Shown here piece by piece: positions 2,090 through 10,456 of a stretch of DNA of 11,748 nt. The stretch covers positions 1 through 11,748 of the forward strand of contig JAHFQD010000024.1 in assembly GCA_023266455.1 (NCBI GenBank), given 5' to 3'. The stretch comes from Candidatus Muproteobacteria bacterium (GTDB taxonomy: Bacteria; Pseudomonadota; Gammaproteobacteria; Acidiferrobacterales; Sulfurifustaceae). Numbering within the stretch: position 1 is the first letter of the stretch; the number at the start of each line of letters is the position of its first letter. The position numbers and the translations under genes were made by a program. The notes beneath the pieces were generated by a model, which was given only the letters and a program-made list of their open reading frames with translations, made no database searches and was not told the DNA's origin.

Positions 2090-3373
2090 ATGCACAAGCG
2101 AATCACCGTTGAGGAACTGAAACTGGGTATGTACGTGGTCGAACTGGACCGACCATGGCGTGATACGCCGTTCATGTTCCAAGGTTTCGAAATCCGCACG
2201 GATGAAGAGATCGTCGCGCTACAGCGCCATTGTCAGTATGTTCACATTGTTCTCCCCGAAAGTTACAACGAACCTCGTGCACGTCACCATGCGGTCGAGT
2301 CGGTCGAAATTCCGCGTCCGGGGAGTTCATCTGCGACGGCGGAACATTTCGACGATCGTGCCTTGCTCCGACGAGTTTCCTCGCCGCGTTTCCCGGCTAC
2401 CTATAGCGATCGTTCTTTGCTCGAAGAAGAGATGGTCGAGGTTCGCTACGCGCACGCGGAAGCAAAAGCCATTATGCAGACGGCGATGGAAGACGTACGG
2501 CTTGGCAAAGGCATCGACGGCGATGGCGCCAAAAAAATCGTCGGCGATCTAGTAGACAGCACATTACGCAATCCCGACGCGCTGACCTGCTTCACACAAC
2601 TGAAGAATAAAGACGAATACACCGCCACGCACAGCCTACGCGTGTGCATCCTCGCGCTCGCCTTCGGCCGTCACTTAGGTTTACCGCTTAGCGCGTTGCA
2701 CATGCTCGGTGTCGGCGCTTTGTTGCACGATCTCGGCAAGATGAAAATACCGAACGACATTCTGAACAAGCCCGGCGAATTAACCGAAGGCGAATTCGAA
2801 ATCATGAAGACGCATGTTCCGTGCGGCGTCGACATTCTAGAAAACACACCGGCCATTCCGCAGGCGGCGATCGACGTCGCGCGCTGCCATCATGAGCGTT
2901 ACAGCGGCACCGGTTACGCCAACGGATTCAAGGGCGACGAAATCGGGTTGTTCGGCATGATCGGCGGCATCGTCGACTGCTACGACGCCGTGAGTTCGGA
3001 CCGCGCGTATCACAAAGGGCTGTCCTCACATGCCACGCTCAAACTCATGTACGAGTGGCGCGGGCGCGAATTCCACGCCGGGCTGGTCGAGCAATTCATT
3101 CAGTGTATGGGGATTTATCCGATCGGCAGCGTCGTGGCGCTCAATACCGGCGACGTCGGCGTCGTGATTACCATGAACCGCACACGCCGGTTGAAGCCGC
3201 GCGTGGCGCTGGTGCGCAAGGCCGACGGCACGCGTTACGAATCGACGTCGATCATCGATCTCACCTCGTGCGTCACGCGCGACGGCAAGCCGTGTGAAAT
3301 CGAGCGAGTGCTGGAACCCTCGCTCTACGGCATCAACCCCGTGGATTACCTACCAATTCCGATCGCCGCGTAA
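2090..3373 (+). CDS. DUF3391 / HD-GYP domain protein, probable c-di-GMP phosphodiesterase
   Basis: HD-GYP proteins are HD-superfamily metal phosphodiesterases that break c-di-GMP to pGpG or GMP. Residues 1-55 (ITVEELKLGMYVVELDRPW, then TPFMFQGFEI) are a typical DUF3391 N-terminus, which supports the ATG at 2090. A variable linker (about 60-110) precedes the HD-GYP domain (about 165-345). Candidate metal ligands are present: His181 (TATHSLRV), HDLGK at 213-217, His242, the His267-His268 pair in CHHER and Asp296/Asp299 in DCYDA. The signature usually written HHExxDGxGYP is here HHERYSGTGYANG: Asp becomes Ser272 and the GYP proline becomes Ala277. These changes are in the loop rather than the ligands, so activity is possible but not assured. 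A C-terminal tail (about 345-427) is usual for this subfamily. It is soluble, with no receiver domain. It meets marC tail to tail three bases away. The SD is weak and distant (AAGGAA, 13 bases). Confidence 0.92.
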   Translation: MHKRITVEELKLGMYVVELDRPWRDTPFMFQGFEIRTDEEIVALQRHCQYVHIVLPESYNEPRARHHAVESVEIPRPGSSSATAEHFDDRALLRRVSSPRFPATYSDRSLLEEEMVEVRYAHAEAKAIMQTAMEDVRLGKGIDGDGAKKIVGDLVDSTLRNPDALTCFTQLKNKDEYTATHSLRVCILALAFGRHLGLPLSALHMLGVGALLHDLGKMKIPNDILNKPGELTEGEFEIMKTHVPCGVDILENTPAIPQAAIDVARCHHERYSGTGYANGFKGDEIGLFGMIGGIVDCYDAVSSDRAYHKGLSSHATLKLMYEWRGREFHAGLVEQFIQCMGIYPIGSVVALNTGDVGVVITMNRTRRLKPRVALVRKADGTRYESTSIIDLTSCVTRDGKPCEIERVLEPSLYGINPVDYLPIPIAA

Positions 3374-6004: not shown

Positions 6005-8008
6005 TCAGTTCGGTAGCGCGGGACGCGCGATTTGAAATCCTTGCGCGAAATCAATACCGAGTTCGCGCGCGGCAGCGAGCGTTTCCGGGTTTTCCACCGA
6101 TTCGGCGATGGTGTATCGGCCAAGTGCGTGCGCCAGCTGCACGATCGACCCCACGATAGCTTGGTCGACCGGGCTGGCGGAAAGGTCGTGCATATAACGT
6201 AAATCGATCTTCACACCGTCCACCGGGAGATGACGCAAATAGAACGGCGACGACAGGCCCACACCAACATTATCGAGCAAGGTGCGACAACCGATGCCGC
6301 GCAACTTCGTCAGAAACGCCTCGGCCATGCCGATATCGGCAACGATCGCCGACTCGGTGACTTCGAAACCGAGCAGCGCCGGATCGACGCCAGTCACGCG
6401 CAAGCGCGTCGCGATGAGATCGCAGATATCGGGTTGCGACAAACTCTGACGCGACAGATTGACGTTGCAACGCATCGACGCTTGACCGCGTTGCTGGGCC
6501 AGTAACTGAATCGTATGCAGGATCACCCAACGATCGACATCGGCCGCGAGGCCGAGACGCTCCGCTATCGGTAGAAAATCGTCCGGCGCCAACACGCTCT
6601 CGCCTTGATCGCACAAACGTAAAAGTATTTCTTGGCTATCGACTTCGCCGGAACGGGCGTTAACGATCGGCTGCGTCGCCAACACGAAACGGTTGTTTTC
6701 CATGGCGTCGCGCAACCGGCGCGTCCACGCGGCGTCGGACGTCGTTTCATCGGATTTATTTTGTTCCGCCACGAGATGGATACGCGTGCGATTACGCCCG
6801 CCGCGCTTCGCGAGGCGGCACGCCGTCTCCGCTTGCGCCAACACGATCGCGGACGACTCTGCGTCTTTACCGATCGGCGCAACGCCGATCGAGCAAGCGA
6901 CATACACGCGCTGCGTTTGATGGCGAAACGGATATTCCGACAACAGTGCGCGAAACGAATCTGCCGCAACCGCGGCCTGGGCCGTATCGACATCGTACAC
7001 CAGCAACGCGAACTCGTCGCCACCGAGACGCGCCAATAGGTCGCCTTTGCGCGCGCGCTTGAACAATACGCCGCCAACTTCCGTCAGCAACCGATCGCCG
7101 GCGGCGGGACCGAGTTTATCGTTCACGTTTTTGAAATTATCGAGATCGATGTAAAGCAGCGCGCAATGTTGCGTCACACGCTGGGCGCGTTCGACCACGC
7201 GCTCCAACTCTTCTTGGAAATAACTGCGATTGTGCAAACCGGTGACGGGATCGCGTTCGGCCACGCGTTTCAAATTCTCCATCACGGCGTGACGCTCGCC
7301 GACTTCGCGCAGGAACACGACGTAACGGGTCTCGCCTTCGGCCGTGAGCGCGCTGGTTTTCATCGCCAGTGAAAAATGACCGCCGCCTTTGCGGCAACCG
7401 TTCGCTTCGCGTTCTTGTCCGACCCAATCGGATATCCGATTCATATCGACGTTAGCGGATCGGCGCGCGATCAGTAGCTCGATGCGCTTACCGATCAACT
7501 CACGCACTTCGTAGCCGAATAATTTTTCGGTGGCGCGATTGACGGCGAGAATGACGCCCTGTTTGTCGATCGTCACGACGCTTTCGGACGTGTTGTCCAA
7601 AACGTTTTGCAGTCGATAGCGATGCGCGGTAGCTTCGAGACGTATGTGATCGAAAGAGTCGACCAAGCTGCGCATCTCGTCGGAGAATTCGCTTTGGAGC
7701 GTCTTGCCACCACCGGCGTTCTCAGCCTTAAGCGCCTCGGTCAGACGTTGTAACGGACGACGCACGACATGGTCGACGGTGAGATAACCGCCGACGAGCA
7801 AAATGACGCTGATGAAGGCGACGGTCACCGGCGCGAAATCGGCGACCCACGCCGCCGCGACCATCACGGAAGAGATAACAACGCCGACGCCGAGATAGCG
7901 CGCGGCCAAACTTGCGCTGGAATGACTGCGAACGAGTACCGGCGCGGCCTTCTGCGCCCGGTCTTTTTGGATTGGTGGCCCCACCGCCACCGTTCCTTTC
8001 ACTGGCAT
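6005..8008 (-). CDS. Membrane-bound PAS-GGDEF-EAL protein with degenerate EAL motif
   Basis: Cyclic di-GMP signalling protein (667 residues from ATG 8008). Order: basic N-terminus; two membrane helices (about 36-56 and 59-78) with almost no periplasmic loop; a linker; a PAS domain (about 132-238, with LDNTSESVVTIDKQG and LFGYEVRELIGK); GGDEF (about 250-415); EAL (about 425-665). The cyclase half looks functional: RDPVTGLHNR, YIDLDNFKNVNDKLG, LARLGGDEF at 326-334, and an I-site RKGD at 320-323 exactly five residues before GGDEF. The EAL half is altered: QEILLRL gives EIL at 460-462, and the usual DDFG is DNVG, so the second metal-binding Asp is Asn580. NVNLS, EVTES, VKID and IAESVE are kept. 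It may be mainly a cyclase, or a c-di-GMP sensor. GTG 8113 would add 35 residues but has no SD and covers palindromic leader DNA. ATG 8008 has only a weak G-rich sequence upstream, so the start is moderate. Confidence 0.9.
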   Translation of the reverse strand: MPVKGTVAVGPPIQKDRAQKAAPVLVRSHSSASLAARYLGVGVVISSVMVAAAWVADFAPVTVAFISVILLVGGYLTVDHVVRRPLQRLTEALKAENAGGGKTLQSEFSDEMRSLVDSFDHIRLEATAHRYRLQNVLDNTSESVVTIDKQGVILAVNRATEKLFGYEVRELIGKRIELLIARRSANVDMNRISDWVGQEREANGCRKGGGHFSLAMKTSALTAEGETRYVVFLREVGERHAVMENLKRVAERDPVTGLHNRSYFQEELERVVERAQRVTQHCALLYIDLDNFKNVNDKLGPAAGDRLLTEVGGVLFKRARKGDLLARLGGDEFALLVYDVDTAQAAVAADSFRALLSEYPFRHQTQRVYVACSIGVAPIGKDAESSAIVLAQAETACRLAKRGGRNRTRIHLVAEQNKSDETTSDAAWTRRLRDAMENNRFVLATQPIVNARSGEVDSQEILLRLCDQGESVLAPDDFLPIAERLGLAADVDRWVILHTIQLLAQQRGQASMRCNVNLSRQSLSQPDICDLIATRLRVTGVDPALLGFEVTESAIVADIGMAEAFLTKLRGIGCRTLLDNVGVGLSSPFYLRHLPVDGVKIDLRYMHDLSASPVDQAIVGSIVQLAHALGRYTIAESVENPETLAAARELGIDFAQGFQIARPALPN

Positions 8009-8087
8009 TTTCGCCCCGCCCCGTTTGACAGCTTGTGCCGGCCGTCCCTGGCAAGACAATGTCGTTATCGTGTAGCCGGTCCCTTGT

Positions 8088-8106
8088 CCCGATCGGGAAA
8101 TTCCCG
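8088..8106. promoter_or_regulatory. Overlapping inverted repeats, possible operator
   Basis: CCCGATCGGG (8088-8097) is a perfect 10-base palindrome. It overlaps CGGGAAATTCCCG (8094-8106), a 6-base inverted repeat around a central A. Both lie 80-100 bases upstream of the preferred ATG of the GGDEF/EAL gene. The position suits a regulator site, but no binding family is recognised. If the GTG at 8113 is the true start they would be coding. Confidence 0.3.
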
Positions 8107-8127
8107 GGTTCACACATGATTAATGTG

Positions 8128-8194: not shown

Positions 8195-10333
8195 CTAAAA
8201 ACCCGCGGCGGTGCCGGATCGGGGGGTGATCTCGGTATCGTCAAACCCGCGGGCGATACGTTTGACGGCCTCATCCAGTTGCGCACGCGTAATGGTCAGC
8301 GGCGGCACGAAACGTAGCACGGTTTGATGCGTGTCCTTCGTCAGTACGCCATGGCGCAGCAGCGTTTTGCACAGCTCGCGCGCATGCACCATGTCGACGT
8401 CGACCTCTAGACCGACGAACAAACCACGACCACGCACCTGACGCACGAACGGGTGCGGCAACGCGCGCAGCTTACGAATAAAATATTCTCCAAGTTCGGC
8501 CGCGCGCTCCACCAAACGGTCCTCGACCAATAAATTCAACGCTTCCAGCGCCACGGCGCAAGCCAATGGATTCCCGCCGAAGGTCGAACCATGATCGCCG
8601 GGTTTGAACACCCGCATCACTTCCTCGCGCGCCAAGAATGCCGAGATCGGCAGCAACCCGCCGCCGAGGGCTTTGCCGAGCAGCACTGCATCCGGAATCA
8701 CGCCGTCGTGTTCGGCCGCGAGCAACTTGCCGGTACGTCCAAGACCGGTTTGCACTTCGTCGCAGATCAGCAGCACATTGCGACGCCGACAGATGTCGGC
8801 GCAGGCTTTTAAATAACCGGGTGGCGGCACGATGATGCCGCCCTCGCCTTGCACCGGTTCGACGATGAACGCCGCCGTGTGCGGCGTAATCGCCGCTTCC
8901 AAGGCCGCGGCATTACCGTAGGGAATTTGCACGAAGCCGGACGGGAACGGTCCGAAGCCATCGCGGTACTGCGGCTCGCTCGACATAGCGAGGGCGCCGA
9001 GCGTGCGGCCGTGAAAATTTCCACTGCAGCAAATAATCTCCGCGCGTCCGTCGATGACGCCTTTTACTTTATAAGCCCACTTGCGCGCCGCCTTAATCGC
9101 GGTTTCGACCGCTTCGGCGCCGGTGTTCATTGGTAAGAACCGATCCTGCTTCGTGAGCGCGCAGACGCGCTGCGCCAACGGACCGAGGCGATCCGTGTAA
9201 TACGCGCGCGACACCATCGACAAGCGTTTCGCTTGCGTCGACAGCGCGCGCGTCAATCGCGGATGCGCATGACCGAAGCTGACAGCGGAGTACGCCGCCA
9301 TCATATCGAGATAACGTTGGCCTTTGAGGTCCCACACGTAAACGCCTTTGGCGCGCGTCAGTACGACCGGCAAGGGCTCGTAGTTACGCGCGCAGTAGCG
9401 GCGTTCGAGATCGACGCTGGCGTCGAGCGGTTGCGCCGCGGCCACCGCGTCGATCATCTGTTCCATCAAAGCCGCCGTGCGTCCATCGCGATCACCATCG
9501 GGATTGAACTCGGCGATTTCTAAACCGAGGAAACGCGGGTTATCGACGGTAGCGCGCAATGCCGCCACCACATCGCCGCCGCTTAAACCTTCCGCTACCG
9601 GCGTTGTGACCGCCGGCGCGTCGCGCGGATCGATCGCGTCGAGATCAATCGAAACGCCAAAACCGCTAGTGCCGCTTTGCACATGCGCCACCGCTTCTTC
9701 CATCACCATCGCCATACCGCGGGCGCGCACATCCTCCATGGAGTAAACCCGCACGCCGAGACGCTTGAGCAACTCCGCTTCCGCCGGTTCGAAACTGCGC
9801 GCGCCGATCAAGCACAGGTGTTGCGGCAACAGCGCTGGGCCGCGGCCAAAGCCGAGACGCGTCAGACTGGCGTCGCCGAAACCCAGCAACGCGGCAAGCG
9901 GCATACCGTGCAGTCGTCCGCTGGGACTGGTTTGTGGCGTGTGCGCGTCCATATGCGCGTCGATCCAGATCAAACCGAGCGCGCCGCGTTTCTTCATGCC
10001 GGCGCGCGCGCCGTTCCAGGTACCGACGGCGGAGGAATGATCGCCGCCGACAACAATGAACCGCGCGCCACGCGCGACGCTGGAACGCACCGTGCGCGCG
10101 AGCTGGCGCGCGAATGGCACCAGTGTACGCGGCGCAACTTTCTTCGATTCTTTCTTAGCGATACGCGCGGTGATCGTCTTGAGCCATATCAACGAACCGC
10201 GTAATTTGCCGCGCGCCATCAAACGCGCGCGCAGACGTTTGGGTCCGTCGGCGCAACGCGCATCCGGCGACCCGACACCGCAGGCGGCGCCGATCAAGTG
10301 AACCGCAGAGGCACCCATCGTCTTTCCACGCAT
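8195..10333 (-). CDS. Fused arginase - ornithine aminotransferase
   Basis: One open frame of 712 residues joins two enzymes. Residues 1-300 are an arginase (arginine to ornithine plus urea): GGDHS with His99, DAHMDAH (Asp125, His127, Asp129), SIDLDAIDP (Asp230, Asp232), His142 in RLHGMP and Glu275 in AEFNP, covering the binuclear Mn site. Residues 305-700 are a class III PLP aminotransferase of ornithine type (ornithine to glutamate 5-semialdehyde): NYEPLPV with Tyr318, AAYSAVSFGHAHP, GNFHGRTLGA with Arg443, VEPVQGEGGI, ICDEVQTGLGRTG with Asp525, and LLGKALGGG with PLP-lysine Lys554. The linker is only about 10 residues (near AAQPLDASVDLE), so both domains are essentially full length. The start is ATG 10333, with GAGGA seven bases upstream; the frame stays open to 10645 but the extra part lacks SD and homology. 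It is cytoplasmic, has its own terminator and is divergent from a semialdehyde dehydrogenase gene. In the arginase half the residue matching human Asn139 is Arg140. Confidence 0.93.
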   Translation of the reverse strand: MRGKTMGASAVHLIGAACGVGSPDARCADGPKRLRARLMARGKLRGSLIWLKTITARIAKKESKKVAPRTLVPFARQLARTVRSSVARGARFIVVGGDHSSAVGTWNGARAGMKKRGALGLIWIDAHMDAHTPQTSPSGRLHGMPLAALLGFGDASLTRLGFGRGPALLPQHLCLIGARSFEPAEAELLKRLGVRVYSMEDVRARGMAMVMEEAVAHVQSGTSGFGVSIDLDAIDPRDAPAVTTPVAEGLSGGDVVAALRATVDNPRFLGLEIAEFNPDGDRDGRTAALMEQMIDAVAAAQPLDASVDLERRYCARNYEPLPVVLTRAKGVYVWDLKGQRYLDMMAAYSAVSFGHAHPRLTRALSTQAKRLSMVSRAYYTDRLGPLAQRVCALTKQDRFLPMNTGAEAVETAIKAARKWAYKVKGVIDGRAEIICCSGNFHGRTLGALAMSSEPQYRDGFGPFPSGFVQIPYGNAAALEAAITPHTAAFIVEPVQGEGGIIVPPPGYLKACADICRRRNVLLICDEVQTGLGRTGKLLAAEHDGVIPDAVLLGKALGGGLLPISAFLAREEVMRVFKPGDHGSTFGGNPLACAVALEALNLLVEDRLVERAAELGEYFIRKLRALPHPFVRQVRGRGLFVGLEVDVDMVHARELCKTLLRHGVLTKDTHQTVLRFVPPLTITRAQLDEAVKRIARGFDDTEITPRSGTAAGF

Positions 10334-10456
10334 TTCGAAATCCTCATGAATCCTTTGCATCGATTTCGGCGTCGACGTGGCGAGCGCGTCGATTGCCGAT
10401 GCCCTACTCTTACCTTTAGATTTTAGAATGTGTATTGATTTTCGCCGGAGACCCGC
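10334..10456. promoter_or_regulatory. Divergent promoter region, arginase-OAT / aldehyde dehydrogenase
   Basis: An AT-rich patch (10411-10440) stands out from GC-rich surroundings and is the likely site of promoters both ways. On the plus strand, TTGCCG (10392-10397) and TAGATT (10416-10421) with an 18-base spacer give a weak sigma-70 promoter. The dehydrogenase ATG then follows with GGAG six bases upstream. On the minus strand TAAAAT (10419-10424) is a possible -10 for the fusion gene without a good -35. The short shared region suggests joint control by one regulator, but I see no clear operator. Confidence 0.4.
10341..10345 (-). promoter_or_regulatory. Ribosome binding site, decides arginase-OAT start at 10333
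   Basis: The minus strand reads GAGGA seven bases before ATG 10333. The next upstream ATG (10360) and the longest frame (from 10645, inside the divergent gene) have no SD. The arginase fold normally begins a few residues before the VHLIGAACGVG strand, which agrees with this start. Confidence 0.75.

Follow-up and report, generated by a model that had tools for sequence, protein, structure and literature searches.

In Bacillus, arginase (RocF) and ornithine aminotransferase (RocD, OAT) are separate enzymes, whereas the gene described here, located in an 11,748-nt stretch of DNA (hereafter the window), encodes both in one chain that is expected to carry out the same two consecutive reactions. 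Its predicted folds match Bacillus arginase and RocD structures, but its arginase half differs from RocF in that two of its substrate positions are occupied by His and Glu and its score lies below the cut-off of the RocF equivalog model. Fused arginine-catabolic steps are already known. The cyanobacterial AgrE, described as a bifunctional arginine dihydrolase/ornithine cyclodeaminase, likewise acts as a single protein on arginine via ornithine towards proline and glutamate (PMC8262935), but it uses other enzymes and releases CO2, ammonium, and proline. Oda, the ODC/arginase of Fusobacteriaceae (PDB 8d27), resembles the window's protein in combining an arginase domain with an ornithine-consuming PLP enzyme, but has the reverse domain order (N-terminal decarboxylase, C-terminal arginase), and the window's protein does not classify as Oda-type. 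In plants, BIO3-BIO1 (dethiobiotin synthetase-diaminopelargonate aminotransferase) also joins an aminotransferase to an enzyme acting at an adjacent step (PMC9309667, where arginase appears in the reference list only). BIO3-BIO1 differs in serving biotin synthesis and in having an unrelated partner domain. Evidence for substrate channelling is reportedly announced in the title of a paper on BIO3-BIO1. PutA, which adjoins the fusion at two loci (L002 and L003), similarly unites consecutive steps of the same catabolic branch, but with unrelated domains and at later steps. Against this background, the arginase-OAT fusion is itself a new variant. The initial annotation knew of no characterised enzyme with the order arginase then OAT, and we found no paper on such a fusion among the matches listed in the open-access literature either.

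Translation of the window's gene (Table 1) gave 712 residues without an internal stop, and a GAGG stretch upstream of the coding sequence ends 8 nt before the ATG. Pfam recognized both halves far above cut-off, Arginase (PF00491) with 180.4 bits versus 22 and Aminotran_3 (PF00202) with 431.5 bits versus 30.5. Thus, arginase and aminotransferase domains do share one polypeptide, as had been proposed, and the architecture bears out the idea that two putative consecutive steps of arginine catabolism are carried by one chain. The predicted structure has a pLDDT of 90.3 for the whole fusion and 92.8 for the arginase domain alone, and both modelled folds match known arginase and OAT structures. In this model the last arginase helix extends to residue 299 and residue 305 opens the first OAT helix, which leaves a linker of about five residues, shorter than the roughly 10 originally estimated. 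A stop or frameshift near 9415-9440, which would have separated the two halves, was found in none of the 119 other relatives in the matches listed.

Table 1. Features of the fusion gene and its divergent neighbour in the window
Feature	Position	Strand	Basis
Fusion CDS, arginase-like + ornithine aminotransferase, 712 aa	8195..10333	-	Translation, Pfam; likely start ATG at 10333
Arginase/ureohydrolase domain, residues 10-296	9446..10306	-	Pfam PF00491
Linker, residues 300-304, last arginase helix to first OAT helix	9422..9436	-	Secondary structure of model
Ornithine aminotransferase domain, residues 313-695	8249..9397	-	Pfam PF00202
His131 codon, replaces human Asn130 (substrate alpha-carboxylate position)	9941..9943	-	Alignment; PMC9224512
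Glu182 codon, replaces human Asp183 (substrate alpha-amino position)	9788..9790	-	Alignment; PMC5648838
Lys554 codon, PLP lysine (human OAT Lys292)	8672..8674	-	Lys in 80/80 fused rows; PMC13327489
Region between fusion gene and divergent ALDH7 gene, 123 bp	10334..10456	.	Coordinates
ALDH7-type aldehyde dehydrogenase of the piperideine-6-carboxylate dehydrogenase family, truncated at the contig end	10457..11748	+	NF050084

We consider it likely that the fusion is a bifunctional arginine-catabolic enzyme that would convert arginine to urea and glutamate semialdehyde and that arose from tandem genes. The N-terminal binuclear-metal domain would convert L-arginine to L-ornithine and urea, and the C-terminal PLP domain would use 2-oxoglutarate as acceptor for the delta-amino group of ornithine, producing glutamate semialdehyde and glutamate. 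The last step to glutamate may be carried out by the adjacent ALDH7 or, in loci that have it, by PutA, and the fusion itself would have formed by loss of the stop between the two tandem genes. We infer the arginine substrate, both activities, and the direction of flux. Given the tight linkage of the arginase-like half to OAT and the ornithine-specific residues of the latter, ornithine appears to be its most plausible product. This assignment is supported by intact metal and PLP residues, the tandem pattern, the frequency of OAT linkage (25 of 29 subfamily loci versus 2 of 13 ordinary arginases), and the PutA and ALDH7 neighbours. Counting against it are the replacement of Asn130 by His and of Asp183 by Glu, scores below the TIGR01229 cut-off, Asn at the His141 position in some relatives, and the lack of a detectable proline dehydrogenase or urease in the incomplete window genome.

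To place the arginase-like half, human residue numbers were mapped onto both domains by motif and spacing, and 240 nearest relatives were aligned, 120 of them fused (window included) and 120 'solo' arginases, so that the figures describe a His/Glu subfamily rather than arginases at large. At least three 'solo' rows (P0130, P0189, and P0190) carry an aminotransferase piece and are probably fusion fragments, and P0122 bears the name 'partial'. All six metal-ligand positions are kept in each of the 240 rows and likewise in all 49 genome loci, the window included, in agreement with the initial annotation, which had noted every expected arginase metal ligand; the Glu277 position is likewise kept in all 240 rows. 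Human Asn130 lies at the substrate alpha-carboxylate (PMC9224512) and Asp183 at the alpha-amino group (PMC5648838), and throughout the 240 rows and 49 loci these are His and Glu, respectively. According to two reports, Asn130 is a determinant of arginase specificity: the N130D enzyme acts on agmatine as well, and efficiency drops in N130A and N130Y (PMC9224512, PMC8125230). All five solved bacterial arginase chains compared have Asn and Asp at these positions; among 13 ordinary arginases of the window's class, the pattern recovered Asn in 12 and Asp in 11 and gave no reading for the rest. The arginase equivalog model TIGR01229 (RocF; cut-off 227.6) gave 183.3 for the window and 164.6-203.8 for five subfamily members including it, compared with 281 for an ordinary arginase (L085). 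A more distant locus with an adjacent OAT gene, L156, has Asn at 130 and Glu at 183; this exception to the strict His/Glu rule may be an intermediate that could reveal the order of the two changes. On account of the Asn130 and Asp183 replacements and the sub-threshold TIGR01229 score, we file this half by its sequence features as a member of the ureohydrolase superfamily and as a candidate, rather than proven, arginase. The rocF-type identity first proposed thus stands as regards the superfamily and the metal ligands, but not as regards the two substrate positions or the equivalog score.

These same features could be read differently. The domain may act on an arginine derivative, for example one substituted at the omega nitrogen, and still yield ornithine, with His and Glu reshaping the substrate pocket. 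This would accord with the occurrence of His130 and Glu183 in every near row, with the variable Asn139 position, and with a subfamily score below the arginase cut-off, but Ser137 is kept in 217 of the 240 rows (Thr in 22, Asn in one), and His and Glu, which by inference can still bind a carboxylate and an amino group, are conservative replacements at these positions. We therefore regard a derivative substrate as unlikely. Loss of activity, leaving a dead or purely structural domain, has a published precedent in a fusion, since the arginase domain of Oda from F. nucleatum, an oral Fusobacterium, is held to be dead after losing two metal-binding Asp residues (PMC12826042, PMC8503589). At the His141 position the window keeps His, whereas Asn occurs in a minority of relatives (five of 120 fused rows and two of 29 paired loci). 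The metal ligands lost from the F. nucleatum protein are, by contrast, intact in the window's fusion and the six-ligand set is complete in every row and locus, making a dead domain very unlikely.

The preferred reading, a bifunctional enzyme passing from arginine to glutamate semialdehyde, draws further support from the aminotransferase half. This half passed the OAT model TIGR01885 (516.8 bits versus a cut-off of 378.4), and it did not reach the cut-off of the RocD subfamily model NF003145 (543 versus 656 bits). Equivalents of human OAT residues Y55, Y85, R180, E235, K292, and R413, whose roles are described in PMC13327489, are present in all of the fused rows checked (80 of 120, with the window among them) and in every one of the 49 loci. 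The description of a full class III aminotransferase with a PLP lysine and ornithine-type motifs was therefore accurate, both K554 and the specificity residues being intact.

Upstream of the fusion lies a divergent ALDH7-type gene, and the intervening 123 bp probably contain both promoters, judging from the layout. The truncated ALDH7 protein of the window scored 590.8 bits with its best model, NF050084, below the cut-off of 730, while five intact relatives beside a fusion or pair scored 735.8-802.3 bits and all passed. ALDH7-type neighbours occur in six of 27 loci (L002, L003, L015, L024, L049, and L076), whose flanks are often short; the model test covered all of the six except L015. Three of the six, L002, L003, and L049, also have PutA, which oxidises glutamate semialdehyde. 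In the window, L101, L108, L127, and L002, the ALDH7 gene is oriented divergently to the fusion or pair. Both this arrangement and the passing of NF050084 by neighbours in five loci would be accounted for by a pathway one carbon longer, from homoarginine via lysine to aminoadipate semialdehyde, with piperideine-6-carboxylate dehydrogenase next door. Yet the OAT residues are all of the ornithine type, PutA accompanies half of the ALDH7 loci, and ALDH7 is found in only six of 27 loci with often short flanks, so that we give the longer pathway only a slim chance.

Other genes relevant to the proposed arginine route were sought at the genome level. Urease alpha turned up in five of 16 genomes with the fusion and in five of eight with pairs (10 of 24 overall). 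The window's own genome, about 77% complete and in 474 contigs, yielded neither proline dehydrogenase nor urease, and no other close OAT, its remaining matches being at most 40% identical. Elsewhere in the window, genes for a DUF3391-HD protein (2090-3373) and a PAS-GGDEF-EAL protein (6005-8113), both possibly related to cyclic-di-GMP, flank Endonuclease V, radical-SAM, and MarC genes.

The initial annotation had described the two steps as normally encoded by separate genes (rocF and rocD), but the fusion proved common in public data. About 5.8 billion proteins were searched, with 8000 candidates scored and 120 listed, among them the window's own; all 119 other relatives in this list hold both domains, at 56-72% identity. 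Where they are named, they are called only ornithine--oxo-acid transaminase, and the named sources include Betaproteobacteria, Burkholderiales, Pelomicrobium, Methylocaldum, Methylococcaceae, and others. A scan of species genomes found 433 relatives, from which 80 loci were kept: judged by open frame, 19 are fused (L006 included), eight are tandem separate genes, and in the other 53 the match is OAT alone or incomplete. We give practically no credence to an artefact, whether of assembly or by frameshift, that joined two genes: although the window's genome is incomplete and fragmented and the domain is missing at E <=1e-50 from 19 of 19 same-family genomes, all 119 other listed relatives are fused, and some fused loci, Azoarcus (L013) and Aromatoleum (L020) among them, come from records whose titles do not call them MAGs. 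We conclude that the fusion is real and widespread, and it appears to be uncharacterised. One incomplete fused gene, L023, sits on a 4.5-kb contig titled Candidatus Eisenbacteria; its arginase motif is nearly identical to that of the betaproteobacterial L004, and it may be taxonomically misassigned. The fusion is not always alone in its genome. Of 16 fusion genomes searched, comprising the window's own and the genomes behind 15 of the 19 fused loci, eight held a further arginase-family gene, while in the other eight, the window's included, the fusion was the sole such match. Four of the further genes (L093, L094, L095, and L096) are solo members of the His-type subfamily with no OAT within the fetched stretch, and two, by their motif, are presumably formimidoylglutamases; G069 and G073 also hold further arginase-family matches.

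How the fusion may have arisen is suggested by the tandem loci, in which OAT directly follows the arginase-like gene, with 4-nt overlaps in L018 and L035, for example. Across 57 genomes searched from the window's order, the fusion occurs only in the window's genome, and two others (G034 and G038) hold the arginase-like gene at E <=1e-50, both as tandem pairs. The genes of these two pairs are separated by 2 nt in L101 and overlap by 4 nt in L108, and since both share the window's layout with a divergent ALDH7 gene, the sequences indicate that the fusion is derived from a tandem gene pair. In an even draw of 369 genomes from the class (E <=1e-50), the subfamily was present in 39, the window's included, with a long fused frame in two (the window's and G144). 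From the other 38 genomes, 29 loci were fetched: one is fused, in 24 the next gene, on the same strand, is OAT, and four (L119, L123, L129, and L136) have no OAT in a fetched flank of about 1.5 kb, so that 25 of the 29 are fused or adjacent to OAT. Some of these loci repeat those of the species scan (L118 and L026, for example). Computed gaps between the two genes in the 24 adjacent loci range from -302 to +176 nt, and the two overlaps near 300 nt are probably artefacts of over-long start calls. A control search of this draw with the ordinary arginase L085 matched 22 genomes; 13 held ordinary arginases, with OAT adjacent in two, and the other nine were again of the His/Glu kind.

A concatenated tree, built from 20 fused and 29 paired genome loci (49 in all; rows L026 and L118 are identical), requires a minimum of two changes between fused and paired states. 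It leaves out L023, the class-draw adjacent pairs L114, L124, L125, L127, and L130, the four loci without OAT in their flank, and the methanotroph fusions, which are available as proteins only. The window is sister to L002 (support 100), the fused G144 locus is placed among pairs, and one large fused group has a support of 53. Given this weak value, and given that well-supported branches force only one change, a single fusion origin is still compatible with the tree. We did not rely on a 94-row tree of the arginase domain, built mostly from database proteins (at least 12 fused/solo changes, eight of them forced by well-supported branches), because several of its solo rows come from short contigs and could be fragments. 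The arginase-like domain was detected at E <=1e-50 in none of 19 same-family genomes, so horizontal gain or differential loss may have shaped its presence in the window's family. Mis-binning of the whole contig seems unlikely, since relatives of the window's radical-SAM gene, at 63-68% identity, occur in eight of the 12 same-family genomes searched.

Beyond the bifunctional enzyme that we favour, a more speculative and rather doubtful extension is that the His130/Glu183 ureohydrolases form a distinct, uncharacterised subfamily that co-evolved with a near-obligate OAT partner, first paired and then fused more than once, in an assembly of mixed symmetry in which OAT dimers would bridge arginase trimers and through which ornithine, or whatever a substituted arginine yields, would be passed directly to the aminotransferase. 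Given that the listed fused relatives, where named, are annotated as ornithine--oxo-acid transaminase alone, their arginase domain is easily overlooked, as is the urea-forming arginine route that may go with it. The His/Glu subfamily amounts to a natural experiment on a residue that published mutagenesis ties to arginase specificity, and the existence of the same enzymes in fused and paired forms offers a clean test of the effect of fusion.
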